32,321 nucleotides of DNA from a bacterium. Lineage in GTDB: Bacteria > Bacteroidota > Bacteroidia > B-17B0 > Aurantibacillaceae. The stretch covers positions 1 through 32,321 of the forward strand of contig JAQSCW010000022.1 of the NCBI GenBank assembly GCA_029945625.1, read 5' to 3'. The notes beneath the pieces are model-generated. The model was not told where the DNA came from, did no database searches, and saw only the letters and a program-made list of their open reading frames with translations. The position numbers were made by a program, and so were the translations under genes. Positions 111 to 15,595 of the stretch are shown here, piece after piece (the first letter of the stretch is position 1; the number at the start of each line of letters is the position of its first letter).

Positions 111-244
111 TAGTTGTTTCCATTTATAAAAAAAATCTATGGTTTAAATAAAATGCATTTCGCCAACAATTCCGATTGATCCATGTTTTCAAGTAACAGT
201 TGAGGGTACAACAGATATGTTTATATTTATCGTCCAATTCCTCC

Positions 245-1123
245 ATGGCACACTTCACCGAATCCGAATTAATTCTTACTCCCGATCACAGGGTTTACCA
301 CCTCAATATACTGAATTCGGATATTGCCGATACCGTGCTTTTGGTGGGTGACCAAAACCGGGTAACTGAAGTTTCAAATTACTTTGATAAAATCGATTTT
401 AAGACCCAACACCGCGAATTTATCACCCATACAGGAACATATAAAGGAAAACGAATTACCGTGCTCAGCACCGGCATTGGAACCGATAACATCGATATTG
501 TACTCAACGAACTCGATGCCGCCGTAAACATCGACCCCCATAAAAGAGAATTAAGAAAAACAAGACGCCGGCTCAACCTCATCCGACTTGGCACCAGTGG
601 CGCTCTGCAGCCCGATTTGGAGGTGGATTCATTGGTGCTCAGCAGTCACGGCATTGGAATGGATGGCCTTTTGCATTTTTATGCGGGTCTTGAGAAAATA
701 GAAGAAAAAGCCATCAGCACCGAATTTATACGTCAAACGAATTGGTCACCTTCTCTCCCAAAACCTTATTGTATCGCCGCTAGCGTCGAACTTCTCGAAC
801 ACTTTTTGCCAATTGCCCACTTAGGAATTACGGCCACGGCACCGGGCTTTTATGCTCCGCAGGGCCGACAAATTCGTTTGAAAGCTGCCATTCCCCAACT
901 GAACAAAAAATTAGCAGATTTCAGACATGGCAAGCTTCGAATTGCTAACTTTGAAATGGAAACTTCGGCGCTTTACGGCCTTGCAAAATTGCTGGATCAC
1001 CGATGTGTAACTCTGTGCGTGGTGATCGCCAACAGAGCGCAAAAGAAATTTAGCAGGGACCCGCAAAAAAGTGTCAGGCATTTAATTGAAACCGCGTTAG
1101 ATAAAATAGCAGAAATAGTATGA
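245..1123 (+). CDS. Nucleoside phosphorylase (uridine phosphorylase-like)
   Basis: This 292-residue protein belongs to the PNP/UDP phosphorylase superfamily. Such cytosolic enzymes cleave nucleosides with phosphate to give the free base and pentose-1-phosphate. The phosphate-binding GDxxR motif is visible at residues 35-39. Other superfamily hallmarks are STGIGTDN, RLGTSGAL near residue 115, and the nucleoside/ribose-binding NFEMETSALYGLA near the C-terminus. I take the ATG at 245 as the start because the frame upstream opens only with a TTG at 200, and those 15 residues do not resemble the family N-terminus. The stop overlaps the pyrF start by 4 nt (ATGA), so the two are probably translationally coupled. 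Uridine is the likeliest substrate given the pyrimidine neighbour, but substrate cannot be fixed from sequence alone. Confidence 0.85.
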   Translation: MAHFTESELILTPDHRVYHLNILNSDIADTVLLVGDQNRVTEVSNYFDKIDFKTQHREFITHTGTYKGKRITVLSTGIGTDNIDIVLNELDAAVNIDPHKRELRKTRRRLNLIRLGTSGALQPDLEVDSLVLSSHGIGMDGLLHFYAGLEKIEEKAISTEFIRQTNWSPSLPKPYCIAASVELLEHFLPIAHLGITATAPGFYAPQGRQIRLKAAIPQLNKKLADFRHGKLRIANFEMETSALYGLAKLLDHRCVTLCVVIANRAQKKFSRDPQKSVRHLIETALDKIAEIV

Positions 1124-1929
1124 CCCGCGACGAACTAATAAAACAGATCTATTCGAAGAAAACATTTTTGTGTGTTGGATTAGATCCGGATACAGAGAAA
1201 ATTCCTAAACATTTAATGGAAGAGGAATTTCCTATTTATGAGTTTAATAAATCCATCATCGATGCCACGGCCGAACAATGTGTGGCCTATAAGCCCAACT
1301 CGGCATTTTATGAGGCATACGGACTTAATGGATTAACTGCCTTGGAAAAAACCATACGCTACATCAAAACAAATTATCCCAAACATTTTGTGATCGATGA
1401 CGCCAAACGGGGCGACATTGGGAATACCAGTGCTATGTATGCCAAGTCATCCTTTAAACGACTCAATGCCGATGCCATCACAGTGGCTCCCTATATGGGA
1501 AGAGACTCCGTAAAACCCTTTTTACAGTTTGAAGATAAATGGGCCATTGTTTTGGGATTGACGAGCAACGAAGGCTCTGCCGATTTTCAGCACTTGAACG
1601 TGGACGGACAGGAATTGTATTTAAAAGTTATTGAAACCTGTGCCTCCTGGGGGACAAAAAATAACATGATGTTTGTGGTGGGCGCCACACAAGCAGCTAT
1701 GTTTGCCAAAATTCGCAAAATTATACCCGATCATTTTCTGCTGGTGCCCGGCGTTGGTGCCCAAGGTGGAGACTTGCAGGAAGTGTGCAAACACGGATTA
1801 AACAAAAATATTGGTCTGCTAATCAACTCAAGCCGAGGGATCATTTATGCTTCTTCCGCTGAGGATTTTGCTGAAAAGGCGGGAGAAGAAGCACTCAAAA
1901 TTGCCACCCAAATGAAATCCTATTTTTAG
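1120..1929 (+). CDS. pyrF: Orotidine 5'-phosphate decarboxylase
   Basis: This 269-residue enzyme converts orotidine monophosphate to UMP in the last step of de novo pyrimidine synthesis. The active-site signature DAKRGDIGNT is present, with D94, K96 and D99 as the catalytic charged network. An early FLCVGLDPD strand and the phosphate-binding end LVPGVGAQGG followed by NSSRGIIYA fit the longer type-2 branch of the family (about 270 residues, as against about 230 in E. coli-type PyrF). The ATG overlaps the stop of the upstream nucleoside phosphorylase, so salvage and synthesis of uridine nucleotides appear to be made from one message. The rest of the gap to the next gene carries a new promoter candidate, so the transcript probably ends here. 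Confidence 0.95.
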   Translation: MTRDELIKQIYSKKTFLCVGLDPDTEKIPKHLMEEEFPIYEFNKSIIDATAEQCVAYKPNSAFYEAYGLNGLTALEKTIRYIKTNYPKHFVIDDAKRGDIGNTSAMYAKSSFKRLNADAITVAPYMGRDSVKPFLQFEDKWAIVLGLTSNEGSADFQHLNVDGQELYLKVIETCASWGTKNNMMFVVGATQAAMFAKIRKIIPDHFLLVPGVGAQGGDLQEVCKHGLNKNIGLLINSSRGIIYASSAEDFAEKAGEEALKIATQMKSYF

Positions 1930-1957
1930 CTTGGTAGACGAATTAACAGAAATTAAA

Positions 1958-1987
1958 TTTTGGAATAAAAACTATTGCCTACTTTAG
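1958..1987 (+). promoter_or_regulatory. Candidate Bacteroidota promoter for the DUF3467 gene
   Basis: TTTTG at 1958-1962 is followed after 17 nt by TACTTTAG at 1980-1987. This matches the phylum's -33 TTTG and -7 TAnnTTTG boxes with one mismatch. It would start a message with a leader of roughly 50 nt before the ATG at 2044. Confidence 0.4.
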
Positions 1988-2043
1988 AATAATAATAACA
2001 AGATCTGAACGCCACCCGTTCATAAAGATAAAAAAACAACAGT

Positions 2044-2358
2044 ATGGAAGATAATCAAGCACCCGCACAACCTCATTTAGATATTGAATTAAGCGAAGAA
2101 ATTGCCGAAGGAATTTATTCAAACCTCGCTATCATCACACACTCTCAAAGCGAATTTGTGATTGACTTTATTAAGATCATGCCGGGCGTTCCCAAAGCGC
2201 GTGTAAAATCACGCATCCTTCTAACGCCGCAACATGCCAAACGACTGGTAAAAGCGTTGGCCGAGAACATTCAAAAGTTCGAACAAGTTAATGGTAAGAT
2301 CAAAGATGTAGAGACGGGTTTCCCCATGAATTTTGGTGGTCCAACGGCACAAGCTTAA
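2044..2358 (+). CDS. DUF3467 domain protein
   Basis: This acidic protein of 104 residues matches my recollection of the DUF3467 family, which is small, widespread in Bacteroidota and of unknown function. Recognisable elements are an SEEIAEGIYSNLA segment near residues 17-29, a central FVIDFIKIMPGVPKARVKSRI stretch, and the helix TPQHAKRLVKALAENI. There is no signal peptide or membrane segment, so it should be cytosolic. It stands alone behind its own promoter candidate and is followed by a structured repeat instead of a partner gene. I do not assign a function. Confidence 0.85.
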   Translation: MEDNQAPAQPHLDIELSEEIAEGIYSNLAIITHSQSEFVIDFIKIMPGVPKARVKSRILLTPQHAKRLVKALAENIQKFEQVNGKIKDVETGFPMNFGGPTAQA

Positions 2359-2464
2359 TTGCCTTGCATCTTTAATTTACAAGTGATTTCCGGAATTGTC
2401 TTCCTATTTATTCTTCTAAATTTTTCAGAATCTGTTTTTAACCGCTGACCTCCCCGTGAGTGAT

Positions 2465-2614
2465 GCGAAGGGTTTAGCTCTTCCCAAGCCCTTCGCTTGG
2501 GAAAGCCGAGGCGAAGCCCAGCCTCCCTCCATTCGTCGGGATAAACTACACAGCACGGCCCCCTGAAGCGAAAAACAACTCAGATGTTGACGCCGGTTTT
2601 TCTGCTTCAGGGGG
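2465..2614. repeat. GC-rich multi-hairpin intergenic repeat
   Basis: Most of the 378-nt gap between 2358 and 2737 is a strongly structured, non-coding, GC-rich element. Stem 1 pairs TTCCCAAGC (2481-2489) with GCTTGGGAA (2495-2503). An alternative, mutually exclusive stem pairs GCGAAGGG (2465-2472) with CCCTTCGC (2489-2496). Stem 2 pairs GAGGC (2508-2512) with GCCTC (2521-2525). Stem 3 is a long imperfect inverted repeat, 2559-2576 with 2596-2614. The right arm of stem 3 includes a 21-nt segment (2593-2613) found again, same orientation, at 6-26. It looks like a REP- or MITE-like dispersed element. No U-tract follows, so it is not a typical intrinsic terminator. Confidence 0.6.
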
Positions 2615-2736
2615 GCACGCCCACAAAAAAATATAACTCCGTATTCTCATTAATTTAAACTGAAACACTTCTCAATTGTTGAAAATTCAACCTTAATAAA
2701 TCTTTAAACCTCACTATTTTTAAACAAAGAAAATCT

Positions 2737-4983
2737 ATGAACGAATCAGGCCTCCACATAAAGATTGCCGCATTATTAAACCTCACCGTAAGAGACGTTA
2801 CTGCCACTGTTAATTTATTGGATGAAGGTGGTACCATTCCCTTCATTTCACGCTACCGTAAAGAAATGACGGGGAGTTTGGACGAAGTTCAGATCATGCA
2901 GATTCGCGATGAAATAGAACGACTGCGACAACTAGAGCAGAGACGCGAAACAATTCTAAAATCAATTGAATCACAAAATAAACTCAGTGAGGAATTACGC
3001 GAACAAATTCTTGCCGCCGAAACTTTGAGTAAGCTCGAAGATTTGTATTTGCCTTATAAACCCCGTCGAAGGACCAAAGCCACCATTGCTAAAGAAAAAG
3101 GTCTGGAACCACTTGCTCACTTTATTTTGGAACAAAAAAACAATGCCGTGCAGGAAGAGGCAGAAAAATTTATTTCACTTGAAAAAGAAGTTCCCGACGC
3201 CGGAGAGGCTCTTCAAGGTGCACGCGACATCATTGCAGAGATCGTAAGTGAAGATGCTATTGTGCGTGAAACGATGCGGGAATTATTTAAAAAAACTGCT
3301 ACCATAAAGAGCAGGCTCATAAAAGGTAAAGAAGAAGCCGGGGAAAAATTTGAAGATTATTTTGAATGGGAAGAAAAACTGATGACTTGTCCTTCGCACC
3401 GCATACTGGCCATGCGCCGGGGCGAGAAGGAAGATATTTTGATTTTAGATATTAGCGTGGATCCTGCAGAAGCGATTACTTTGATTGAACGCAAAATGAT
3501 TACCGGTCGCGGTGCTGCAGCCGATCAAGTAAAGGAGGCCATTGCCGAAGGATACAAACGTTTATTGCAACCGGGCATAGAGGCCGAAATGCGCGTGCTT
3601 ACCAAACAACAAGCCGACGAGAAAGCAATCACGGTATTTGCGGATAATTTGCGTGAATTATTATTGGCGTCTCCACTCGGACAAAAAACAATTTTGGCGT
3701 TGGATCCCGGATTCAGATCAGGATGCAAAGTAGTGGTGCTGAACAAGGAAGGAAAACTATTAGAAGATACGGTCATCTATCCGCATGAGCCGCAACGCAA
3801 AGTCACCGAATCGGAAATGGTGATTCTCGCCTATTGCCAACGCCACGCTATTGAAGCCATTGCCATTGGCAACGGAACTGCTTCGCGTGAAACAGAACAG
3901 TTTATAAGAAACATTGATGTGTTGCCAAAATCAATTCCTGTAATTGTAGTGAGTGAAGCGGGTGCTTCCGTTTATTCTGCCTCCGATGTGGCACGTGAAG
4001 AATTCCCAAATAAAGATGTGACGGTGCGCGGTGCAGTGTCCATTGGACGACGACTGGCCGATCCTTTGGCGGAATTGGTGAAAATAGATGCCAAGTCTAT
4101 TGGCGTGGGTCAGTACCAGCACGATGTGGATCAAACGCATTTGAAAAATAAATTAGATGAAGTTGTGGGATCATGCGTGAACGCGGTGGGTGTAGAACTA
4201 AATACAGCTTCTAAGGAATTATTATCCTATGTTTCTGGCATTGGACCAGTGTTGGCACAAAACATTGTGCAGTACCGCAACGAACATGGTGCGTTTATCT
4301 CACGCAAACATTTGTTGGAAGTACCGCGCATGGGTGAAAAAGTTTATGAGCAATGCGCAGGTTTTCTAAAAGTGCGAAACGGCAAGCATCCTCTTGATAA
4401 GAGTTCGGTGCATCCCGAGAGTTATCATATTGTGGAAAAAATGGCCGGCGATTTAAAATGTGGTATTGACGAACTCATGGAACAGAAAGATTTGCGCAAA
4501 AAAATTACCTTAACAAATTATGTCACAGAAACGGTTGGTTTGCCTACACTCAAAGACATCATGACGGAGTTGGAAAAACCCGGACATGACCCACGAAAAA
4601 GTTTTGAGATCTTTAGTTTTGATGAGCACGTTCATGAAATAAAAGATCTGCGGGAAGGCATGCGCCTACCGGGCATTGTCACTAATGTAACCAATTTCGG
4701 AGCCTTTGTGGACGTGGGAGTTCATCAGGATGGATTAGTACATATTTCACAGTTGGCCGATGAATTTGTAGATGATCCCAATAAAATTGTAAAAGTGGGT
4801 CAACAAGTCTGGGTGAATGTGACAGAAGTAGATGCGAAACGAAAACGGATTGCTTTGAGTATGAAAGGAGAAACGCAGCAGATTAAAGTTTCAAAACCAA
4901 AAGTAGTTGTGGAAGCCGAACAATACGATCCCAATGACATTACCAGCGCCTTAAACGCATTAAAAAACAAATTTAAGAAGTAG
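2737..4983 (+). CDS. tex: Tex-family RNA-binding transcription accessory protein
   Basis: This 748-residue protein has the full Tex (YhgF) architecture. It begins with an N-terminal helical region, then a YqgF/RNase H-like domain starting at LALDPGFRSG near residue 319. Helix-hairpin-helix segments follow around 495-545 (SGIGPVLAQNIVQYR and VPRMGEKVYEQCAGFLKV). An S1 RNA-binding domain lies at about 641-712 (GIVTNVTNFGAFVDVGVHQD). Members act on RNA and transcription complexes in the cytoplasm and are near-universal. The ATG at 2737 gives the family's standard N-terminus. aroE follows 39 nt later on the same strand and may be co-transcribed. Confidence 0.95.
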   Translation: MNESGLHIKIAALLNLTVRDVTATVNLLDEGGTIPFISRYRKEMTGSLDEVQIMQIRDEIERLRQLEQRRETILKSIESQNKLSEELREQILAAETLSKLEDLYLPYKPRRRTKATIAKEKGLEPLAHFILEQKNNAVQEEAEKFISLEKEVPDAGEALQGARDIIAEIVSEDAIVRETMRELFKKTATIKSRLIKGKEEAGEKFEDYFEWEEKLMTCPSHRILAMRRGEKEDILILDISVDPAEAITLIERKMITGRGAAADQVKEAIAEGYKRLLQPGIEAEMRVLTKQQADEKAITVFADNLRELLLASPLGQKTILALDPGFRSGCKVVVLNKEGKLLEDTVIYPHEPQRKVTESEMVILAYCQRHAIEAIAIGNGTASRETEQFIRNIDVLPKSIPVIVVSEAGASVYSASDVAREEFPNKDVTVRGAVSIGRRLADPLAELVKIDAKSIGVGQYQHDVDQTHLKNKLDEVVGSCVNAVGVELNTASKELLSYVSGIGPVLAQNIVQYRNEHGAFISRKHLLEVPRMGEKVYEQCAGFLKVRNGKHPLDKSSVHPESYHIVEKMAGDLKCGIDELMEQKDLRKKITLTNYVTETVGLPTLKDIMTELEKPGHDPRKSFEIFSFDEHVHEIKDLREGMRLPGIVTNVTNFGAFVDVGVHQDGLVHISQLADEFVDDPNKIVKVGQQVWVNVTEVDAKRKRIALSMKGETQQIKVSKPKVVVEAEQYDPNDITSALNALKNKFKK

Positions 4984-5022
4984 GTCTTTAAATAGTACCG
5001 GTTTGTAAAAAAACCAAAATAT

Positions 5023-5772
5023 ATGAAACAATTTGGTTTAATAGGCCGCTCGCTCAGTCACTCCTTTTCAAAATCGTACTTTGAAAAAAAATTTAATGAC
5101 CTGCAATTAAAAGATCATAGTTTTGAAAACTTCGAATTAGCGACTATTGAAGATTTTAAACCCCTCCTAAAAAATAATCCAAACCTGAATGGAGTAAGTG
5201 TCACCATTCCTTATAAGGAAACGATTATGCCTTTCCTTGATGAGCTGAGTATGGAGGCAAAGGAAATTGGCGCCGTGAATTGCATCAGTTTCAAAAACAG
5301 AAAACTCATGGGGCACAATACCGACGTGTATGGTTTTTCGCAAAGTATTAAGCCGTTTCTCGACGCCAATCACGAACGTGCGCTGATTCTGGGGACAGGA
5401 GGCGCAAGCAAGGCGGTGGCGTATGCACTTAAAAAGGTGGGCGTAGAAGTTTATTTCGTGAGTTCATCGCCGAAGAAAACAGAGAATACATTTTCCTATG
5501 CCGAAATTAATGATCGCATCCTAAATGCTTTTAAATTAATCGTGAATACCACGCCTTTGGGAACATTTCCAAAAACGAATGAATGTCCTCCCCTGCCCTA
5601 TGAATTCCTTACCCCGCTTCATTTAGCCTATGATCTAGTGTACAATCCGGCAGAAACTTTGTTTTTGAAAAAAGCAAAAGAACAAGGAGCCATTTCGGTA
5701 AACGGTGTAAGTATGTTGCATTTGCAAGCTGAAAAAAGTTGGGAGATTTGGAATTCTTCCAATGAATATTAA
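5023..5772 (+). CDS. aroE: Shikimate dehydrogenase
   Basis: This 249-residue NADP-dependent enzyme reduces 3-dehydroshikimate to shikimate in aromatic amino acid synthesis. The N-terminal shikimate-binding motif GRSLSHSFSK is intact. The catalytic pair is K65 in VTIPYKE and D101 in NTDVYGF. The Rossmann nucleotide-binding loop GTGGAS starts at residue 124, and the C-terminal GVSMLHLQAEKSWEIW helix is typical. It is slightly shorter than the E. coli enzyme (about 270 residues), which is usual for this phylum. It follows tex at a short distance, and no terminator is visible between them. Confidence 0.95.
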   Translation: MKQFGLIGRSLSHSFSKSYFEKKFNDLQLKDHSFENFELATIEDFKPLLKNNPNLNGVSVTIPYKETIMPFLDELSMEAKEIGAVNCISFKNRKLMGHNTDVYGFSQSIKPFLDANHERALILGTGGASKAVAYALKKVGVEVYFVSSSPKKTENTFSYAEINDRILNAFKLIVNTTPLGTFPKTNECPPLPYEFLTPLHLAYDLVYNPAETLFLKKAKEQGAISVNGVSMLHLQAEKSWEIWNSSNEY

Positions 5773-5785
5773 TTGATGAAATACT

Positions 5786-6125
5786 CTTTGGTTTCTGACT
5801 CTTTTTTAGCCACAGAGGGCACAGAAAAAATCACAAGGGACACAGAGAAGAACAAAAAATCTCTGTGAGTGCTTTGGTTTCTGACTTTTTTTATACAGGG
5901 CCGCAGAGAATTCAATTATGACACAGAAGAACAACTCTTTTGTTTTGTTTTCGCCTCTACTCTTTGGCCTTTGAGTTTTTGTTCCCCTCTGTTTACTCCG
6001 TGTTTAAAGCATATCAATTTTTTAAACGGAGACATATAGTAATGAGGGCACGTTTAATATTCTTTCGTGTTTTACCAAAAAGCTCAGTGTACCTCTGTTA
6101 CTCTGTTGCCTATGTGTTGAGAACT
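5786..6125. repeat. Non-coding region of degenerate CACAGAG motifs
   Basis: The 409 nt after aroE contain no convincing gene. A 15-nt segment occurs twice exactly, at 5786-5800 and 5872-5886, each followed by a T-run and then a CACAGAG- or GCAGAG-like block. CACAGAGA at 5841-5848 pairs with TCTCTGTG at 5860-5867 to make an 8-bp hairpin. Reverse-oriented CTCTGT motifs return at about 5985-5995 and 6090-6110. The array is therefore partly self-complementary at long range. A 62-codon frame across 5940-6128 is compositionally poor and was not called. Confidence 0.5.
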
Positions 6126-6181
6126 TAAAATTTTCTTTAGCACAGTATCTCAAAAACCTGTCCTCTTCACGAAAATCCTTT

Positions 6182-6916
6182 TTAATTCTCCGCATTCTCC
6201 CTTAATTTCAGAGGCTGATGTCTGCCCTCCGCTTTCCAATGGTGGTAACAGTCCATCACCTTGGAATACAATTCAATGCCATCGTGAGAAATTATATAAA
6301 AATCGTTTACATAATAGCAGTATTTTCGAAAGGCCATGTAATCAATGTTTTCGTCGCCGGTGAGTCGCACCAAAATTTCCCTGCTCAATTTCTTTTGCAC
6401 TTGCTCCTCAATCATCAGGTCTTCAAATATTTGTGCCAATTTCCGGATCTGTTTTCCCTCTTTGCTGTACTGCATGTACAAGGCGCTGAACGGACTTTGA
6501 AAATAGCTGATGGATTTGATTTTACTTTGTTCGATAATGCTATTCATGTATTCGCGCTCATAGGGCTTTAACTTAAACGAGGTCACGGTAACGGCATTTA
6601 AATTTATCATTATTGGCACAAGTACTAATTTAACCTCTCCCTTGGAATTTCGCTTTAAAGTTTCAACCGGTATGTAGGCCTTTAAAAAACCCACATACGA
6701 ACAAATAAGAGTATCTCTGGGCTGCACAATCAAAGAGAACTTCCCATCGTTATCACTCATGGTCCCGTTTCCGTTACTTTTGTTAATGATGTATACAAAG
6801 GGCATCACCGAAACACTGTCGTTCTCCACCACGAAGCCCCTAATGATCTGCTGCGAGTACAACTCGTGAGTTGCCAGAACTGAGAGCAGGACTATGAGAA
6901 CCTTTATTTTCAACAT
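6182..6916 (-). CDS. Exported protein with carboxypeptidase-regulatory-like domain
   Basis: This 244-residue protein starts with a clear signal peptide (MLKIKVLIVLLSVLATHELYSQ) if the ATG at 6916 is used; an upstream ATG would bury it behind 12 extra residues. The next ~90 residues (IIRGFVVENDSVSVMPFVYI, then DNDGKFSLIVQPRDTLICSYVGF) match the carboxypeptidase D regulatory-like beta-sandwich. This domain often opens TonB-dependent receptors and other periplasmic Bacteroidota proteins. The C-terminal half (YEREYMNSIIEQSKIKS onwards) is helical and basic, with no recognised domain. It is divergent from dnaX and transcribed alone. Location is probably periplasm or outer membrane; function unknown. 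Confidence 0.75.
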   Translation of the reverse strand: MLKIKVLIVLLSVLATHELYSQQIIRGFVVENDSVSVMPFVYIINKSNGNGTMSDNDGKFSLIVQPRDTLICSYVGFLKAYIPVETLKRNSKGEVKLVLVPIMINLNAVTVTSFKLKPYEREYMNSIIEQSKIKSISYFQSPFSALYMQYSKEGKQIRKLAQIFEDLMIEEQVQKKLSREILVRLTGDENIDYMAFRKYCYYVNDFYIISHDGIELYSKVMDCYHHWKAEGRHQPLKLRENAEN

Positions 6917-7031
6917 TCTAAAAGTAAGTGGTTCTAATATACTTATAAACACGTAGTTAATAATTTAACCTTTTTTAATCACAAGTATTTTTTCTTAAGC
7001 CCTGCAATAAACGTATTTTTAAAACTTATAA

Positions 7032-8759
7032 ATGGACGGATTTATTGTATCGGCGCGTAAGTACAGGCCTCAGAACTTTAGCACAGTTGTGGGACAGAGT
7101 CATATCACGAACACGCTTAAAAACGCCATCATCTCCAAACAACTCGCTCAGGCCTACTTATTCTGCGGTCCGCGTGGGGTTGGCAAGACCACCTGTGCCA
7201 GGATTTTTGCTAAAACCATCAATTGTTTCAATATTTCTCCAAATGGCGAAGCTTGCGACCACTGTGAATCCTGCTTATCCTTTAATTCGGGCGCATCATT
7301 GAATGTTTACGAACTCGATGCTGCCAGCAACAATTCCGTGGAAGATATCCGCAACCTAGTTGATCAGGTACGTTTTGCTCCTCAATTAGGCGAATACAAA
7401 GTGTACATCATTGATGAGGTGCACATGCTCAGTACCGCCGCGTTTAATGCCTTTCTCAAAACGTTGGAAGAACCACCTAAGCATGCCAAATTCATTCTTG
7501 CCACTACCGAAAAGCACAAGATCATCCCAACTATACTTTCACGCTGTCAGGTTTTTAATTTTAACCGCATCAAAACGGAGGACATCAGCAGTCATCTGGC
7601 TTACATGGCAGGCGAAGAAGGTGTAACGTATGAACCGGAAGCCCTGCATGTGATTGCGCAAAAAGCCGATGGAGGACTGCGCGACGCCTGCTCCATTTTT
7701 GATCAAATGGTGGCCTTCACCGGAAACCATTTAACCTATAAACAAGTGGTTGAAAACCTCAACGTACTTGATTATGATTATTATTTCAAAATCACCGATG
7801 GTTTTTTGAGCGCAGACCTTCCCGGCATCCTAATGATTTTTGACGATATTCTGAAGAAAGGATTCGACGGTCATAATTTTTTGGTGGGGCTTGGCGAACA
7901 CTTACGCAACATTTTGGTGAGTCGCGATCCACAAACCATCACCCTGCTGGAGGTAAGTGAAAATCTTAAACAACGCTATGCGGTCCAGGCCCAGAAGTGC
8001 AGTCTTTCTTTTCTGCTGAAAGCTCTCAGCGTCATAAGTAAAACAGACGTTAATTACAAAAGCGCCAAAAATCAACGCCTGCTTGTAGAAATGGCACTCA
8101 TGCAAATGACCTATTTGACCGCATCACTCGATGCGGAAAAAAAAAAGGATGAACTAGAGGAATCCGTTTCGGGTCTTCCTGAAGCAACTCCGGCTAGTCA
8201 TCCCATAGCCCTGTCACAGATTACTGCCTTGCAGGAAAAAGAAATAAAATTCGCCACCAAACCCAGTCTACCCTTTGATCAACTAAAAATCAAAACATCC
8301 TTCAGTCTCAATGAAGTAAAGAATTATAGTGGTAGCGCCCTTAAACAAATCGACACACGTGTTGCGGAGATCAATGAAGCAAAAATTCAAAATGCAGAAG
8401 TTACCCTGGTAGATGTGAAGTCGTCAATTTTGAGGTACGCCGATGAAAAACAAAATCAGGGCTCACGGCAACTGGCCACCATCTTCAAAACCTCAGAAAT
8501 AACGTTTGTCGATAATACGGTGACGCTCACACTTAATAACGAAACCCAAAAAGAGCAATTGCTCATGATCAAACAAGAATTTGTGGATGAACTACGTCGC
8601 TTGCTGCAAAACACATCGGTAGGATTTAACATTGAGTTATCGCAAGCTGTCACGCAGGTAAGGGCCTATAAACCACATGATGTTTTTAAAGCGATGAGCG
8701 AAAAAAATCCGGCTCTTCTTGAACTAAAAAAACGTTTTGATCTTGAAATTGATTATTAA
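7032..8759 (+). CDS. dnaX: DNA polymerase III subunit gamma/tau
   Basis: The clamp-loader ATPase of the replicative polymerase, 575 residues. Visible features are Walker A GPRGVGKT (46-53), the zinc-binding cysteines C65, C75, C78 and C81, Walker B with D128-E129 in IIDEVHML, and the sensor/arginine-finger motif ILSRCQVF. The conserved ATPase and collar domains end at about residue 365 (LLVEMALMQMTYL). The rest is a low-conservation tau-type tail. At codons 369-372 the gene runs through ten A residues inside a hairpin-flanked site, described separately, that could yield a truncated gamma form. An M16 protease gene follows after 12 nt and is likely co-transcribed. Confidence 0.96.
   Translation: MDGFIVSARKYRPQNFSTVVGQSHITNTLKNAIISKQLAQAYLFCGPRGVGKTTCARIFAKTINCFNISPNGEACDHCESCLSFNSGASLNVYELDAASNNSVEDIRNLVDQVRFAPQLGEYKVYIIDEVHMLSTAAFNAFLKTLEEPPKHAKFILATTEKHKIIPTILSRCQVFNFNRIKTEDISSHLAYMAGEEGVTYEPEALHVIAQKADGGLRDACSIFDQMVAFTGNHLTYKQVVENLNVLDYDYYFKITDGFLSADLPGILMIFDDILKKGFDGHNFLVGLGEHLRNILVSRDPQTITLLEVSENLKQRYAVQAQKCSLSFLLKALSVISKTDVNYKSAKNQRLLVEMALMQMTYLTASLDAEKKKDELEESVSGLPEATPASHPIALSQITALQEKEIKFATKPSLPFDQLKIKTSFSLNEVKNYSGSALKQIDTRVAEINEAKIQNAEVTLVDVKSSILRYADEKQNQGSRQLATIFKTSEITFVDNTVTLTLNNETQKEQLLMIKQEFVDELRRLLQNTSVGFNIELSQAVTQVRAYKPHDVFKAMSEKNPALLELKKRFDLEIDY
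8119..8180 (+). promoter_or_regulatory. Putative frameshift/transcriptional-slippage site in dnaX
   Basis: A perfect 7-bp hairpin, CCGCATC (8119-8125) with GATGCGG (8130-8136), abuts a run of ten A at 8137-8146, read as GAA AAA AAA AAG. A second stem-loop at 8158-8180 (AGGAATCCG, loop TTT, CGGG, two-base bulge, TTCCT) starts 10 nt after the A AAA AAG heptamer. Gain of one base, or a -1 ribosomal shift, gives Lys-Lys-Lys-Gly then TGA at 8150-8152. Loss of one base gives Lys-Lys-Arg-Met-Asn then TAG at 8155-8157. Both products end at about 373 residues, just past the collar domain. dnaX of E. coli (ribosomal -1 shift at A AAA AAG) and of Thermus (slippage on an A-run) make gamma this way. That it operates here is inference. 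Confidence 0.6.
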
Positions 8760-8771
8760 TTTTAAATTTTC

Positions 8772-11720
8772 ATGATACTACTAAGTCGAATTCATAATCT
8801 GTTCTTGTTGACGCTCGTCGCTTTTTCGTTTTCCGGCTGGGGCCAATCTGTAAGTATGGGGATTTCCACCGGCGAAAAAACGGGCAGTCCCTACGAAACA
8901 GCGCTAAAGGACCCGCTTTATGCCCGCATCTATACCCTTTCAAATGGAATGAAAGTCTATATGTCGGTATATAAAAACGCCCCAAGGATCCAAACCTATA
9001 TTGCCATAAAAGCAGGCAGCAAAAATGATCCGGCCACAGCAACCGGACTGGCCCATTACCTCGAACACATGGTTTTTAAAGGCACCGATGTATATGGGAC
9101 AAAGGATTACAAAAGTGAACGGGTTGAATTGGCCAAGATTGAAAATCTTTATGAGTTGCATCGTAAAACAAAAGATGTGGCTCAACGCACAAAAATCTAC
9201 TATCAAATCGACAGCATCAGTGGGGTGGCTGCAACTTATGCCATCGCCAATGAATACGATAAGATGCTTGCCAATATTGGCGCCACCGGTACCAATGCGT
9301 TTACCTCCTTTGATCAAACTGTGTATGTAAATGACATTCCCTCCAATCAAATTGATAACTGGTTGAAAATAGAAGCCGAACGATTCAGAAAACCTGTATT
9401 ACGGTTGTTTCACACGGAACTGGAAGCAGTATACGAAGAAAAAAACAGAGGGCTTGATAATGATGAGGAAAAAGTGTGGGAAGCACTGTTTGCGGGACTT
9501 TTTAAGAATCACACCTACGGCACGCAAACCACCATTGGTACCATTGAGCACCTCAAAAATCCTTCCATGTTAGAGATCAATAATTATTACCAAAAATATT
9601 ATGTGCCTAATAATATGGCCATTATTATGAGTGGCGATTTTGATCCCGACAAAGTTGTTGTGGACATTGAAAAACATTTTGGCAATTATCAAATCAAAAC
9701 GGTGGAGCCGTATCAGTTCCAGCCCGAATCTCCCATCAAAGAAAAAGTGGTGAAGGAAGTCTATGGGCCCGATCCTGCTCAAGTAGCCATGGCGTGGCGA
9801 TTTTCGGGCGACGGCACAAAAGATGCCGATATTTGCACACTGCTTTCCGGCATGTTATCTAACGGAACGGCAGGCCTCATGGATCTCAACCTCAATCAGG
9901 CTCAAAAAGTGTTGAGCAGCAACGTCTTTTTTTATCCACTTAAGGACTATAGCGTTTTTTATGCCGGAGGCGAACCCAAAGAAGGACAAAGTTTAGAAGA
10001 GGTTGAGAAACTGATTCTGTCGCAGATTGATTTGATTAAAAAAGGAGAATTTGAACCCTGGCTGACCGATGCCGTGATTACCGATTTAAAATTAAAGAAA
10101 ACAAAAGAACTCGAAAGCAACAGCTCACGCGCCGATGCCATGTTAGGCGCCTTTGTTGATGATGTTAAATGGCAAACTTATGTCAATACACTCGAACGGG
10201 TATCGAAGATCAGCAAGCAGGAACTCATGTTTTTTGTGAACAAAAATTTTTCGGCCGGTAATTATGCGGTTGTTTATAAGAGAACCGGTGAAGACAAAGC
10301 GGTGGTGAAGGTCGAAAAACCAATAATCACACCCGTTGAAGTGGACAGAGACAGCAGTTCTCAATTTGTGAAAAGTCTTCAAAAATCAATCCCTCCCGCC
10401 ATTGAACCCAAATTTCTGAATTACGAAAAAGACATTATTCAAACCACCATGAAGTCAAATATTCCAGTTCTGTATAACAAGAATGTGGAAAACAATTTGT
10501 TTGAATTGTATTATAAGTTCGACATGGGAAGCAACAATGGCAAAATTTTTCCGATTGCTATAAAATACATTCCCTATCTGGCAACCGGCACCATGAGTGC
10601 ATCACAAATCAAAGAAGAATTGTACAAATTGGGATGCTCATTTAAGGTGTTTTGCGATAACGAGAACATTTGGGTGAGTCTCTCCGGACTCACTGATAAT
10701 TTTGGAAAGGCCCTTGAACTGTTTGAGAAAGTGATGACCGATCCTATTGTGGAAGAACCGGTTCTAAAAAATCTCATCGCCGACCTCATCAAAGAACGCA
10801 ACGATAACAAATTAGAGAAACGCATCATCCTGAATAAAGCCATGACTAATTTTGCCCGATATGGGCCACGCAATCCATTCTCCTACGTATTCAGCGATGA
10901 AGAACTTAATTTAATAACTCCATCTCAACTAAAAGAGGTGATCACGACCTTGCCCAAGTATGAGCACAAAATACTCTACTATGGTCCGAAAGAACTTGGA
11001 CTGGTAAAGGCTGCCTTAAATCAATTTCACACGGTGCCTGAGAAGCTAGATCCTGTTCCCTCTCCGGAAGTCTTTATTGAAAAATTTCTCGACAAAACAG
11101 TGTACCTGATGGATTATGACATGAAACAGGTAGAGATCCTACTGCTGTCGAATGGTGAAAATTACAGACCTGAAATGGTGCCAATTATCAATTTATACAA
11201 CAGCTATTTTGGCGGTGGAATGAGCAGCATCTTGTTCCAGGATTTAAGAGAATCAAAGGCGCTTGCCTATTCTACGTTCTCGCGTTACAACCAACCTAAT
11301 AAACTCGGTAAGAGTTATTACAATGTGTCCTACATAGGATCGCAAGCCGATAAACTGGAAGAAGCCCTTAACGGCCTGAGTAATTTATTGAATAATATGC
11401 CCGCCGCGGATGGCACATTTTCTTCCGCAAAAGAACTCATACTTCAGGAAATGCGTTCACAGCGCATCACGAAGGCGGAGATCCTATTTGATTTTTTGAG
11501 AGCCGGGCAATTGGGAAATGCCACCGACATAAGAAAGGATATTTTCGAAAAGGTTCAGAATTTCACATTTGAGGATGTCGATAATTTCCAAAAACAAAAC
11601 ATAAAAGGAAAACCCACCACGGTAGTAATATTGGGTAAAAAAGAGAATCTCAATCTAAAGATCCTTGAACAATACGGAACCCTGAAATTCTTATCTTTGC
11701 AGAAAGTATTCGGCTACTAA
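8772..11720 (+). CDS. M16 family zinc metalloprotease (pitrilysin-like)
   Basis: This 982-residue protein has a hydrophobic N-terminus resembling a signal peptide (to about residue 26), so it is probably periplasmic. The inverted zinc motif HxxEH is H95-Y-L-E98-H99. The third ligand is probably one of E222/E223 in AVYEEKNRGLDND. The N-terminal half is the catalytic M16 lobe. The second half (from about residue 560) lacks HxxEH but keeps the characteristic Arg-Tyr pair region LFQDLRESKALAYS, as in the inactive partner lobe. The gap between HxxEH and the downstream Glu is longer than usual, because of a charged, helical insertion near residues 105-155. Substrates are unknown; relatives degrade peptides. 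It follows dnaX by 12 nt. Confidence 0.9.
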   Translation: MILLSRIHNLFLLTLVAFSFSGWGQSVSMGISTGEKTGSPYETALKDPLYARIYTLSNGMKVYMSVYKNAPRIQTYIAIKAGSKNDPATATGLAHYLEHMVFKGTDVYGTKDYKSERVELAKIENLYELHRKTKDVAQRTKIYYQIDSISGVAATYAIANEYDKMLANIGATGTNAFTSFDQTVYVNDIPSNQIDNWLKIEAERFRKPVLRLFHTELEAVYEEKNRGLDNDEEKVWEALFAGLFKNHTYGTQTTIGTIEHLKNPSMLEINNYYQKYYVPNNMAIIMSGDFDPDKVVVDIEKHFGNYQIKTVEPYQFQPESPIKEKVVKEVYGPDPAQVAMAWRFSGDGTKDADICTLLSGMLSNGTAGLMDLNLNQAQKVLSSNVFFYPLKDYSVFYAGGEPKEGQSLEEVEKLILSQIDLIKKGEFEPWLTDAVITDLKLKKTKELESNSSRADAMLGAFVDDVKWQTYVNTLERVSKISKQELMFFVNKNFSAGNYAVVYKRTGEDKAVVKVEKPIITPVEVDRDSSSQFVKSLQKSIPPAIEPKFLNYEKDIIQTTMKSNIPVLYNKNVENNLFELYYKFDMGSNNGKIFPIAIKYIPYLATGTMSASQIKEELYKLGCSFKVFCDNENIWVSLSGLTDNFGKALELFEKVMTDPIVEEPVLKNLIADLIKERNDNKLEKRIILNKAMTNFARYGPRNPFSYVFSDEELNLITPSQLKEVITTLPKYEHKILYYGPKELGLVKAALNQFHTVPEKLDPVPSPEVFIEKFLDKTVYLMDYDMKQVEILLLSNGENYRPEMVPIINLYNSYFGGGMSSILFQDLRESKALAYSTFSRYNQPNKLGKSYYNVSYIGSQADKLEEALNGLSNLLNNMPAADGTFSSAKELILQEMRSQRITKAEILFDFLRAGQLGNATDIRKDIFEKVQNFTFEDVDNFQKQNIKGKPTTVVILGKKENLNLKILEQYGTLKFLSLQKVFGY
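11665..11699 (+). promoter_or_regulatory. Candidate promoter for proline dehydrogenase
   Basis: TATCTTTG at 11692-11699 is a perfect TAnnTTTG -7 box. A TTG at 11665-11667 lies 24 nt upstream, at the long end of the accepted spacing. The site lies inside the last codons of the M16 protease gene, about 70 nt before the putA-type ATG at 11772. Confidence 0.45.
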
Positions 11721-11771
11721 TTTAAATCAAACACATCCCTTTTAAAAAATTATAATAATCCTCAACTATTT

Positions 11772-12935
11772 ATGATATCATTTGATAATACCGAAAATGC
11801 ATTTAAAGGAAAAACAAACGCTGAACTTCGTCGCTCATATTGGCTCTTTAAACTAATTGGAAGTCCTTTTTTGGTAAAAATAGGAGCCGAACTTGGTCCT
11901 GTTGCGTTGAACTTAGGACTAAAAGGAATTCTGAAATCAACCATCTTCAAACAATTTGTAGGCGGTGAAACCATTCACGACTGTTCAGCAGCAATTAAGT
12001 TACTGGCCGATCACAAGGTGGGAACTATATTAGATTATAGCGTAGAGGGAAAAGAAAGTGAAACAGATTTTGATACCTGTCGCGATGAAACCATTGCCAC
12101 CATTCACAAAGCAAAAACCGATAAAAATATTCCATTCTGTGTCTTCAAAGTTACGGGCCTAGCCCACCTTCAGCTTTTACAAAAAGTAAGCTCCAACGAG
12201 GTGCTCGCGCCTGCCGAAAAAGAACAGTGGGACCGCGTGAAAAACCGCGTGAGCAAAATATGTCAAACAGCGTATGAAAATGATCAGCCCATTTTTATTG
12301 ATGCCGAAGAAAGTTGGATTCAGCCCGCTATCGACGAACTAGCCAATACAAACATGGCACTGTGTAACAAAACGAAGGTCATTGTCTACAATACGTTCCA
12401 ACTCTACCGTACCGACCGGCTGGAATACCTCCGCAGTTCATTTCAAAACGCCATCTCACAAAGTTATTATCTGGGAGCAAAATTGGTTCGTGGGGCCTAT
12501 ATGGAAAAAGAACGCGAACGCGCCGACGAATTAAACTATCCTTCGCCCATACATACAAACAAAGAAGGTACCGACAGAGATTACGATCTGGCTCTTAAAT
12601 TCTGTGTCGAAAACATCAACAACATGGCACTTTGCGCCGGTTCTCATAACGAGTCCAGTAGCTTGCACCTGCTTGAATTGATGAAGCAGCATAATCTCTC
12701 AGCCTCAGATCCAAGAATCTATTTTTCTCAACTTCTGGGCATGAGCGACCACATCAGCTTTAACTTGTCAACAAACGGGTATTGTGTTGCCAAATACGTA
12801 CCCTATGGTCCCATTCACGAAGTACTTCCCTACCTCATTCGACGGGCACAGGAAAACACCAGTGTAGAAGGACAAACGGGCAGGGAACTGAACCTCATAA
12901 TGAAAGAAAAACAACGACGCAGGGCTCTTAAATAG
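11772..12935 (+). CDS. Proline dehydrogenase
   Basis: This 387-residue FAD-dependent enzyme oxidises proline to pyrroline-5-carboxylate, the first step of proline catabolism. It is a stand-alone PRODH domain (TIM-barrel) without the P5C dehydrogenase half found in bifunctional PutA. Diagnostic stretches are DAEESWIQPAIDELA, VYNTFQLYRTDRLEYL, KLVRGAYMEKERERA and the C-terminal YVPYGPIHEVLPYLIRRAQEN. The last carries the substrate-carboxylate-binding arginines in RR. The length fits the monofunctional Bacteroidota enzyme. It appears to have its own promoter within the end of the upstream gene, and the partner dehydrogenase is not in this window. Confidence 0.92.
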   Translation: MISFDNTENAFKGKTNAELRRSYWLFKLIGSPFLVKIGAELGPVALNLGLKGILKSTIFKQFVGGETIHDCSAAIKLLADHKVGTILDYSVEGKESETDFDTCRDETIATIHKAKTDKNIPFCVFKVTGLAHLQLLQKVSSNEVLAPAEKEQWDRVKNRVSKICQTAYENDQPIFIDAEESWIQPAIDELANTNMALCNKTKVIVYNTFQLYRTDRLEYLRSSFQNAISQSYYLGAKLVRGAYMEKERERADELNYPSPIHTNKEGTDRDYDLALKFCVENINNMALCAGSHNESSSLHLLELMKQHNLSASDPRIYFSQLLGMSDHISFNLSTNGYCVAKYVPYGPIHEVLPYLIRRAQENTSVEGQTGRELNLIMKEKQRRRALK

Positions 12936-13031
12936 GAGATCTTTCACGCTTTTTAAACCGCAATTAGACAATAGGAGCCTTCTTTAAGGCGATTAACTGT
13001 CTTAGTGCGGTTAATCCCGAATAAGTGTTTG

Positions 13032-13175
13032 TTAGGGTTTCGAATCTTTTAATAACAATTAAACCCTTACAAACTCGTACATCGCAGGCAGATGCTTTTT
13101 CAACGCATGTTTAGGGTTAAACGCATATTTTCAGATTCAATCCCGAATGATTTTTTAGTCGTTTTGAACCCTAAA
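13032..13175. promoter_or_regulatory. Repeated TTAGGGTT motif upstream of cca
   Basis: In the 259-nt gap before cca, TTAGGGTT occurs at 13032-13039 and 13111-13118, and its reverse complement AACCCTAA at 13167-13174. The last two extend to a 9-bp inverted repeat (13110-13118 with 13167-13175). A near copy, AACCCTTA, lies at 13062-13069. AACGCAT flanks the middle copy on both sides (13102-13108 and 13120-13126). The downstream copy sits in the -33 region of the cca promoter, so an operator or a pairing RNA/DNA structure is possible. No known factor is recognised. Confidence 0.35.
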
Positions 13176-13179
13176 ATTG

Positions 13180-13187
13180 TATTTTTG
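13180..13187 (+). promoter_or_regulatory. -7 promoter box of cca, leaderless context
   Basis: TATTTTTG is a perfect TAnnTTTG box, and the ATG at 13195 lies only 7 nt beyond it. Transcription would therefore start on or within a few bases of the start codon. A TTTTG at 13162-13166 is 13 nt upstream, too close for the normal -33 spacing, so the -33 element is uncertain. Confidence 0.55.
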
Positions 13188-13194
13188 CAGCGCC

Positions 13195-14592
13195 ATGTAT
13201 CCATTCTTACACCGGGAAATTTTTAAACTTATTCGCACCTGTGCCGACGAGCTGGATGCCGATGCCTATGCAATTGGTGGTTTTGTTCGCGACCACTTTT
13301 TGAACCGGCCCTGCAAAGACATTGATCTTGTTACCATTGGTAAAGGCATTGACCTGGCGACACTCTTACATAAAAAACTTGGTAAACAATCGCACCTTTC
13401 CACCTTCAAAAATTTTGGTACGGCCCAGGTAAAATTTGAGGAATACGACATCGAGTTTGTAGGTGCACGCAAAGAAAGTTATAACCGTCATTCCCGAAAA
13501 CCGGTGGTGGAAGATGGCAGTCTCGAAGATGATCAAAACCGACGTGATTTCACCATCAATGCTCTGGCAATCGGAATTTCAAAAAATAATTTTGGAAAAC
13601 TCCTCGATCCCTTTGATGGGCTCAAAGACCTTCAAAACAGAATCCTTCGAACCCCCCTTGATCCGGATCTCACATACAGCGATGACCCTTTGAGAATGAT
13701 GCGGGCCATTCGTTTCGCATCGCAATTGGATTTTACCATTGAGACTAATTCCTTTCTCGCCATTTCAAAAAATAAAGAACGTATTGGCATCGTTTCCAAA
13801 GAACGGATCAGTGATGAACTAAATAAAATTATTTTATCACCCGTTCCTTCAAAAGGGTTCAAGCTCCTTTCAGATACCGGACTTCTTCAACTTATTTTTC
13901 CCGAAATGGCAAGATTGCATGGCACCGAAACCATTAATGGCCTTTCACATAAAGATAATTTTTATCATACGCTGGAAGTACTCGATAATGTTTCTATAAA
14001 GACCAATAATCTTTGGTTACGCTGGTCGGCCATTTTGCACGACATTGCGAAGCCCGCCACCAAACGTTTTGAAGAAGGTCACGGATTTACCTTTCACGGT
14101 CATGAAGACAAAGGCGCTCGCATGGTGCCAAAAATTTTTGCCAACTTAAAATTGCCTTTGAACGAAAAAATGAAATACGTTCAAAAATTAGTGGAACTGC
14201 ATTTGCGTCCCATTGTTCTTGCAAAAACAGAAGTTACGGATAGTGCTGTGCGGCGACTTTTATTTGAGGCCGGAGATGATATAGATGACCTTATGCTTTT
14301 GTGCGAATCAGACATCACCACCAAAAATCCAAACAAAGTAAAGCGGTATATGTTGAATTTTGAATTGGTTCGCAAAAAATTAGTAGAGCTGGAAGAAAAA
14401 GACAAGATCCGCAATTGGCAGCCACCCATCAAAGGCGAGGAAATTATGGTATTGTATGGATTGGGCCCGGGCAAGCACATAGGGATTTTGAAGAATGCAC
14501 TCAAAGATGCTATTTTAGACGGCGAAGTGGAGAATAATTATGAAAACGCCAAACTCTTTCTCGATAAAAAATTCAAAGAATTGGAAGAGTAG
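13195..14592 (+). CDS. cca: CCA tRNA nucleotidyltransferase / poly(A) polymerase family
   Basis: This 465-residue class II nucleotidyltransferase probably adds or repairs the 3' CCA of tRNAs. The catalytic signature AIGGFVRDHFLNRPCKDIDL supplies the metal-binding D42 and D44. The other family motifs are RRDFTINALAI and DPLRMMRAIRFASQLDF. An HD-type domain follows (LRWSAILHDIAKPATK, then HEDKGA), as in many CCA enzymes with phosphatase-like HD regions. The ATG at 13195 is chosen because the -7 box lies just before it; an upstream TTG at 13177 falls within the promoter region. Poly(A) polymerase is the main alternative, since the families are hard to separate by sequence. GSCFA follows after 8 nt. 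Confidence 0.9.
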   Translation: MYPFLHREIFKLIRTCADELDADAYAIGGFVRDHFLNRPCKDIDLVTIGKGIDLATLLHKKLGKQSHLSTFKNFGTAQVKFEEYDIEFVGARKESYNRHSRKPVVEDGSLEDDQNRRDFTINALAIGISKNNFGKLLDPFDGLKDLQNRILRTPLDPDLTYSDDPLRMMRAIRFASQLDFTIETNSFLAISKNKERIGIVSKERISDELNKIILSPVPSKGFKLLSDTGLLQLIFPEMARLHGTETINGLSHKDNFYHTLEVLDNVSIKTNNLWLRWSAILHDIAKPATKRFEEGHGFTFHGHEDKGARMVPKIFANLKLPLNEKMKYVQKLVELHLRPIVLAKTEVTDSAVRRLLFEAGDDIDDLMLLCESDITTKNPNKVKRYMLNFELVRKKLVELEEKDKIRNWQPPIKGEEIMVLYGLGPGKHIGILKNALKDAILDGEVENNYENAKLFLDKKFKELEE

Positions 14593-14600
14593 CCATCCAC

Positions 14601-15548
14601 ATGAAATTTCACTTAAACCATAAACCCCTGCTCTCTGATGATAAGATCAGTCACCGGACTCCTGTTTTTCTAATGGGCTCCTGCTTCACCCAAAATATAG
14701 GTGCAGCCCTAACAGAACATAAATTTAAAACCTGCATCAACCCGAATGGCATCTTGTTTAACCCACTCAGTATCGACAATTCATTGCGGAGCCTGATTTA
14801 CAAGCTCCCGTTTGACGAAAAGCAGGTACTTGAACGCGATGGTATTTTTCTGAGCTATCACCATCACTCGTCAATATCGGCCGCCTCTAAAGATGAACTG
14901 ATCACTAAGATCAACTCAGAAACAAATCAGAGTTCGATGTTTTTGAATAAGGCCAAATTTCTGATTATTTCTTTCGGAACTGCGTTTACGTATTTCCACA
15001 AAGATCTTTCTCTCGCCGTGGCCAATTGTCATAAACAAGATGCTTCTTTGTTCGAGAAACGACTTTTGAAAGTAGAGGAAATTGTGGATTCATACACACA
15101 ACTTATCAGCGATCTCCACGCATTTAATCCTGAATTAAAAATAATTTTTACAGTGTCTCCCGTAAAACATCTTCGTGATGGCATTGAACAAAATAATCTC
15201 AGTAAAGCAACGCTTCTCTTGAGCATCCACCAGATCCTCAAAAAACAGGCCACTTGCTTTTATTTTCCTGCTTTTGAACTCATAAACGACGACCTCCGCG
15301 ATTATAGGTTCTACGAGGAAGACCTGGCTCATCCCAACAAACTCGCCCTGGATTATGTTTGGAAGAAATTTTCGGAATGTTATTTTAGCGAAGCCACTCT
15401 GCAACTCAATAAACTTATCGGGAAATTGAACCGGGCCCTTGATCACAGGCCAATCCACGGGAGCAGCACCGAACAATCCAAACTCGAAGAGTACGTTGAT
15501 GCACGTAAAACGGAGATTAAGAGCCTGTTTCTGGAGATCGAATTTTAG
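14601..15548 (+). CDS. GSCFA domain protein
   Basis: This 315-residue protein opens with the family's name-giving motif, here [10 protein letters not shown] at residues 25-34, within an N-terminal GSCFA domain. The central [12 protein letters not shown] and [25 protein letters not shown] stretches are also typical. The glycine-serine start and the DLAHPN aspartate-histidine pair resemble an SGNH/GDSL-like hydrolase fold, but no substrate is established. No signal peptide is seen. It is separated from cca by 8 nt and from aspS by 47 nt on the same strand, so it probably shares their transcript. Confidence 0.87.
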
Positions 15549-15595
15549 AAATTAAACAAAAAAAACACCTAATTTTAGGAAAATTTAAAGGGCAT

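Follow-up and report, generated by a model that had tools for sequence, protein, structure and literature searches.

The dnaX gene raises a question to which two answers are classical, namely transcriptional slippage on nine A residues in Thermus and ribosomal frameshifting in E. coli. Which of these, if either, is likely to operate when an uninterrupted run of ten A residues follows directly on a perfect hairpin and both alternative frames close almost at once? The gene discussed here is arranged in this way. It lies in the window, by which we mean the whole stretch of 32,321 nucleotides that was analysed, and the following features enter the argument.

7032..8759, plus strand: dnaX, full-length tau frame, 575 aa (NCBIfam PRK14971 equivalog, over the cut-off)
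8119..8136, plus strand: perfect hairpin (7 bp, 4-nt loop) set directly against the A-run (sequence and folding; covariation in the genus)
8137..8146, plus strand: putative A10 slippage run (sequence; kept in relatives)
8141..8147, plus strand: A AAA AAG heptamer (sequence; inherent in A10-G at its codon phase)
8147..8203, plus strand: strong downstream stem of the window gene only, role doubtful (folding; not conserved)
8150..8152, plus strand: stop codon TGA of the frame entered by one extra A or by a -1 ribosomal shift, predicted gamma of 373 aa
8155..8157, plus strand: TAG reached with one A fewer, predicted gamma of 374 aa

The dnaX gene of the window and its predicted products

In the zero frame, codons 369-376 read GAA AAA AAA AAG GAT GAA CTA GAG, and the uninterrupted A10 spans codons 369-372 (GAA AAA AAA AAG). 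One additional A, or a -1 shift of the ribosome, places GGA (8147-8149) and then TGA (8150-8152) after the run and gives a product of 373 residues, while the loss of one A leads to AGG ATG AAC TAG, with the stop (8155-8157) three codons on and a product of 374 residues. The Pfam domain DNA_pol3_gamma3 occupies residues 236-370. Both predicted truncations end just beyond it, in agreement with the sequence-only reading, which had placed both ends near residue 373, past the collar domain. The predicted 373- and 374-residue products would thus consist of the clamp-loader core only, without the C-terminus of tau. The proposal that the site serves slippage into a short, gamma-like product is supported as a prediction, and it held on the relatives described below.

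As in Thermus, the gamma-coding part ends in at least nine A's (here ten), tau is encoded in a single frame and stops lie close by in both other frames. The heptamer known from E. coli is found at 8141-8147. The tau and gamma parts share one open frame of 575 aa, and the gene is not a two-frame gene in the sense of Antonov et al. 2013.

The perfect 7-bp hairpin flush with the ten A's was confirmed, the stem-loop at 8119-8136 being set against the run at 8137-8146. Its sequence is CCGCATC-ACTC-GATGCGG and its last base adjoins the A10. The predicted energy is -10.6 kcal/mol (z -6.8), and none of 200 shuffled sequences folds as well. The host genome contains 52 overlapping A10 matches, which correspond to 42 distinct runs. 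Among the 28 distinct runs examined, the dnaX run is alone in having an upstream fold near -11 kcal/mol, the next best being -5.7 kcal/mol, and few of the 28 sit deep within sense open stretches. One that does (L324, at about 1501; G000:C18:101361-101370) has 166 open codons before it and 322 after it; it has no upstream hairpin and is a possible second slippage or phase-variation site.

The neighbours of dnaX (200-17374) are housekeeping genes, i.e. a phosphorylase family member, OMP decarboxylase, Tex, a shikimate dehydrogenase N-domain, proline dehydrogenase, a poly(A)-polymerase-like protein, GSCFA and a class II aminoacyl-tRNA synthetase, and a gene for an M16 peptidase directly follows dnaX.

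The run, the stops and the frame of tau in relatives

The loci compared came from three overlapping sources, namely 60 relatives, an even draw of 149 genomes over the class (146 of which had a dnaX match) and the best 80 of 551 loci from named genomes; many of them come from metagenome assemblies. Once 11 duplicates and two truncated entries (L061 and L257) had been set aside, 253 of the 266 loci were left as distinct Bacteroidia dnaX genes. The class draw contributed 142 genomes with a usable distinct locus; two others (G138 and G142) are duplicates of named loci, and the remaining ones had no match or a truncated match only. For each locus the run scored was the longest stretch of A's in the 250 nt that follow residue 349.

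A run of nine to thirteen A's is present at the site in 203 of the 253 loci (A9 in 27, A10 in 159, A11 in 15, A12 and A13 in one each). The other 50 loci have A7 (7 loci) or shorter runs (43 loci), and A8 does not occur. As a background, 252,472 bases of upstream dnaX sequence from the same loci contain one A9, four A8 and 32 A7, and 86,802 bases of downstream sequence contain two A9, four A10, 16 A8 and 39 A7. In the class draw alone the run is found in 119 of 142 genomes and 54 of 62 families. Over the 203 loci it is found in all three codon phases, and the base that follows it is G in 78, T in 64 and C in 61 of them. The use of all phases, the varied next base and the peak in length together mean that the nucleotides themselves are conserved, with a sharp mode at ten, which bears out the idea that selection acts on the A-run at the nucleotide level.

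In a FastTree phylogeny built from the N-terminal parts (253 rows), presence of the run changes 18 times. Many of the 50 loci without it belong to gut Bacteroidales (Bacteroides, Prevotellaceae, Barnesiella; L071, L078, L087, L093, L101 and L111 are among the run-less loci), a pattern that resembles the loss of a slippage site. In family f43 (L265-L268) an A9 is found about 20-45 codons later than usual, at the equivalents of residues 390-416, and all four genes would need one extra A to bring tau into frame. Of 40 loci taken from other classes within the phylum, 22 have an A9 or A10 in the searched region, and in eight of these 22 the open frame ends at residue 382-399.

Stops were also found to be enriched in both alternative frames, in line with the sequence-only reading. 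Among the 155 in-frame genes with the run, a stop occurs within five codons in the +1-A frame of 153 and in the -1-A frame of 123, as compared with fractions (+1 A, -1 A) of 0.39 and 0.32 at control sites in the linker and of 0.41 and 0.39 in domain III of the same genes. In the genes where tau is out of frame it is the zero frame that closes within five codons (38 of 39 genes of the +1 type and 4 of 4 of the -1 type).

These out-of-frame genes are a point that the sequence-only reading overlooked: in many relatives the arrangement is reversed, with tau out of frame, and the direction of slip that is needed varies. The frame was assigned by a profile of the C-terminal domain, which was recognised in 242 genes and not found in 11. 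The C-terminus of tau shares the frame of the gamma part in 199 genes; it lies in the +1-A frame in 39 and in the -1-A frame in 4, so that 43 of 242 genes need the slip in order to make tau. The run is present in all 43 of them, as against 155 of the 199 in-frame genes, and their C-terminal domain is intact. On the same FastTree phylogeny (N-terminal parts, 253 rows) the state of the frame changes at least 24 times. Even in the window's genus, where all 36 scored loci have A10 or A11, 32 genes have tau in frame, two need +1 A, one needs -1 A and one is without the C-terminus. Out-of-frame genes make up all or most of several families. They recur within f12 (L051, L223, L227 and L229) and occur in isolates, among them Fluviicola chungangensis (L068; A10, tau needs +1 A) and Jiulongibacter sediminis (L117), whereas the isolates Hymenobacter polaris and Pedobacter cryoconitis have A10 with tau in frame. 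This recurrence in families and isolates argues against sequencing error as a general cause, and error is still possible for single metagenome genes such as the one with A11 at L035.

The upstream hairpin in relatives

The hypothesis that the hairpin matters arose from the window gene and was then tested on other loci; the 24-nt window and the cut-offs were chosen by us. Over the 203 loci with a run, the 24 nt before it fold with a mean energy of -5.46 kcal/mol, as opposed to -1.5 to -2.3 kcal/mol at eight other offsets. Perfect stems of at least 6 bp cluster 0-3 nt before the run and fall to the background level by about 6-8 nt. Since the window's genus inflates the raw hairpin counts, we also give counts per family and for a set thinned to less than 75% identity. 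When each family of the class draw is represented by a single locus (n=54), the mean energy is -4.87 kcal/mol at the site and -1.81 kcal/mol at the control, and a fold of -5 kcal/mol or lower is found in 49% of the families versus 10% at the control. The thinned set, in which other classes are included (n=107; 21 other-class loci passed its narrower cut), gives -4.09 versus -1.90 kcal/mol (p 2e-12). When the natural sequence is ranked among synonymous recodings of its peptide, it falls into the best 5% in 23 of 107 cases at the site and in 8 of 107 at the control. The contrast is smaller for perfect stems alone (about 18 of 85 groups with at least 6 bp at 0-3 nt, versus 6%).

Covariation within the genus points in the same direction. 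Twelve cells are changed on both sides of a pair, where shuffles give 3.9, and the score for covariation stands at 0.175, where shuffles give 0.088; in both cases none of 500 shuffles reaches the value, and in the score all slid versions are lower. The version slid by -3 has 14 double-change cells against the 12 of the true register, and pairs with double changes are not unusually numerous in the genus (3 versus 2.0, reached by 135 of 500 shuffles). The fold energies of the relatives and the covariation in the genus thus support the view that the hairpin beside the run is a likely stimulator.

The hairpin is by no means universal. Of 224 genes with the run, 111 have no upstream fold that reaches -5 kcal/mol; such a fold is rarer in the out-of-frame genes of the +1 type (14 of 39) than in the in-frame genes (87 of 155), and rare with A9 (10 of 37). 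Its presence, at the same threshold, changes 46 times on the N-terminal FastTree tree (253 rows). To judge from these sequence comparisons, the upstream hairpin is probably a common helper in the family, not a constant part.

Slippage of the polymerase or of the ribosome

We propose that programmed slippage of RNA polymerase, helped by a hairpin in the nascent RNA, probably makes both gamma and tau. A polymerase that copies the A10 would hold a hybrid consisting of rA:dT throughout, and a hairpin 0-3 nt before the A10 would stand directly behind this hybrid once the last A is copied. Formed in the fresh RNA at that position, it would stall the polymerase or loosen the hybrid, the RNA would slip, and mRNAs with an altered number of A's would arise. 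Messages with 10 (or 10+3n) A's would yield the full tau of 575 aa; other numbers would bring a stop within a few codons and yield a gamma of 373-374 aa, the clamp-loader core. We infer from the comparisons above that it is the polymerase, not the ribosome, that slips, that the hairpin stimulates the event and that both proteins are made. Slippage of RNA polymerase is favoured because mostly 9-11 A's are kept and both slip directions are used, and because of the known hybrid length and the stem-loop of Roseiflexus. According to PMC5009743, the hybrid of Thermus RNA polymerase measures 9-10 bp, nine A's allow efficient slippage, and in an IS630-type element of Roseiflexus slippage is enabled by a stem-loop that lies directly 5' of a motif of 10 nt.

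The alternative that fares best, and one that we regard as unlikely, is that gamma arises by -1 ribosomal frameshifting of the E. coli type, at A AAA AAG (or A AAA AAA), and that the run and the hairpin are secondary. The heptamer is present in the window gene, yet seven A's would be enough for such a shift and the 253 loci have A7 in 7, A8 in none and A9-A13 in 203 cases. The direction that corresponds to a -1 shift of the ribosome, or to +1 A, is the one needed by 39 of the 43 out-of-frame genes, and G follows the run in 26 of these 39; against this, four genes need the opposite direction, and T or C follows the run in 105 of the 155 in-frame genes. Moreover, a hairpin flush upstream of the slippery site would be within the ribosome when the shift occurs.

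The downstream side was examined in the same way. The window gene has a strong stem at 8147-8203 (-26.4 kcal/mol, z -4.1, one of 200 shuffles as good), which starts right after the A-run on the last base of the heptamer and encloses both out-of-frame stops. Such a stem would suit a ribosomal shift, but it is not common to the genus, where the mean z is -0.43 and z is -2 or lower in 4 of 37 genes, the window gene included. In the thinned set a downstream fold is weak or absent (p 0.035 for 40 nt, 0.082 for 60 nt and 0.45 for 80 nt), and we reject a downstream stimulator as a general element on the folding of both the genus and the thinned set. The smaller stem-loop (8157-8178) that had been put forward as a second element does not stand out (-7.7 kcal/mol, z -1.0; 31 of 200 shuffled sequences fold equally well). 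No Shine-Dalgarno-like stimulator was seen by eye, the 22 bases preceding the heptamer consisting of the hairpin and A's. In view of the unconserved stem, the lack of such a stimulator by eye and the A9-A11 that are mostly kept, the picture of a gene that mixes elements of the E. coli and Thermus types could not be upheld. The nucleotide-level alignment of related dnaX genes that had been proposed as a check retains the A-run, the stops and, in about half of the genes, the upstream hairpin; it does not retain the downstream stem.

Two further points speak for the ribosome. Among the 30 tRNA matches listed (150 of 225 candidates scored) there is one tRNA-Lys, with anticodon UUU, and none with CUU, though the list is incomplete and no tRNA-Ile appears in it either. 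In PMC5009743 a sole tRNA-Lys, which in E. coli has the anticodon UUU, is tied to ribosomal shifting in that species, and two are tied to slippage in Thermus; the same source mentions an unpublished observation of E. coli-like stimulators in Chlorobium phaeobacteroides. The tRNA-Lys UUU from this incomplete list therefore speaks against the slippage reading, and a ribosomal share in the window species is possible. A combined alternative, in our view quite improbable, is that the mix comes mainly from slippage of the polymerase, with a ribosomal contribution at the same run that is perhaps larger in the window species owing to its own downstream stem. The heptamer within the run, the downstream stem and the single tRNA-Lys among the listed matches would fit it, and the lack of conservation of the stem weighs against it. 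That no programmed event exists, the run being chance lysine and glutamate codons and the out-of-frame relatives assembly errors or decayed genes, is scarcely credible and was rejected: many loci are metagenomic and homopolymers mutate and mis-assemble readily, but the run is kept in 54 of 62 class-draw families, in all phases and with its mode at 10, the stops are enriched, the hairpin covaries, and out-of-frame genes with an intact C-terminal domain recur in families and isolates.

It is useful to compare this gene with the known systems, as far as the accessible parts of the papers cited describe them. Firstly, Thermus thermophilus dnaX slips during transcription on an A9 (Larsen et al. 2000, via PMC1088944 and PMC5009743). 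Both genes have an A-run, a tau in a single frame with stops near in the other frames and a shorter gamma (predicted here). The window gene differs in having A10 and a flush upstream hairpin, which those parts do not mention for Thermus, and slippage is demonstrated in Thermus thermophilus and inferred here. Secondly, E. coli dnaX, which makes use of -1 ribosomal frameshifting at A AAA AAG (PMC3711429, PMC5009743), shares the heptamer and a gamma that ends one codon later. In contrast to it, the window gene has a longer A-run and an upstream hairpin, with no Shine-Dalgarno-like element by eye and an unconserved downstream stem. Thirdly, Antonov et al. 2013 (PMC3711429) inferred transcriptional realignment for 17 two-frame dnaX genes, nine of which have 10 A's. 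The out-of-frame relatives are of this type, as their tau needs the shift, whereas tau of the window gene is in frame; the accessible part of that paper does not mention an upstream hairpin, in-frame genes with the same run or frame flips inside a genus. Finally, the window gene shares with the IS630-type element of Roseiflexus a stem-loop directly 5' of a 10-nt motif, and its dependence on the stem-loop is putative. The Roseiflexus motif is T5C5, which loses one C in a transposase gene (PMC5009743), as opposed to A10 in a housekeeping gene; an A10 may also slip by itself, without a hairpin.

Slippage in dnaX is itself already known. A literature search that reached a minority of the subscription papers returned no account of a hairpin set flush before the run in dnaX; within the same scope, and without the supplementary figure of Antonov et al. 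2013, it returned none of the breadth of the run in the phylum or of repeated frame flips round a kept A10.

A wider reading, on which our own opinion is evenly balanced, is that in much of the phylum the production of the replicase depends on a built-in stutter of RNA polymerase, which in many lineages would be aided by a hairpin in the nascent RNA that holds the polymerase in place while the A10 fills its entire hybrid. Since slippage would then supply all three frames, the frame of tau would be free to drift, flipping many times while the A10 stays. If this is true, hairpin-assisted transcriptional slippage would be a regular and old feature of a cellular housekeeping gene, a large bacterial group would set its supply of gamma relative to tau through programmed transcription errors, and the frame of an essential gene would have gained the freedom to drift through slippage. 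Out-of-frame dnaX genes in this group should then not be labelled as broken in annotation. With and without the hairpin, with A9 to A13 and with tau in three frames, these genes would offer a natural series for studying the rules of hairpin-stimulated slippage and the need for gamma.
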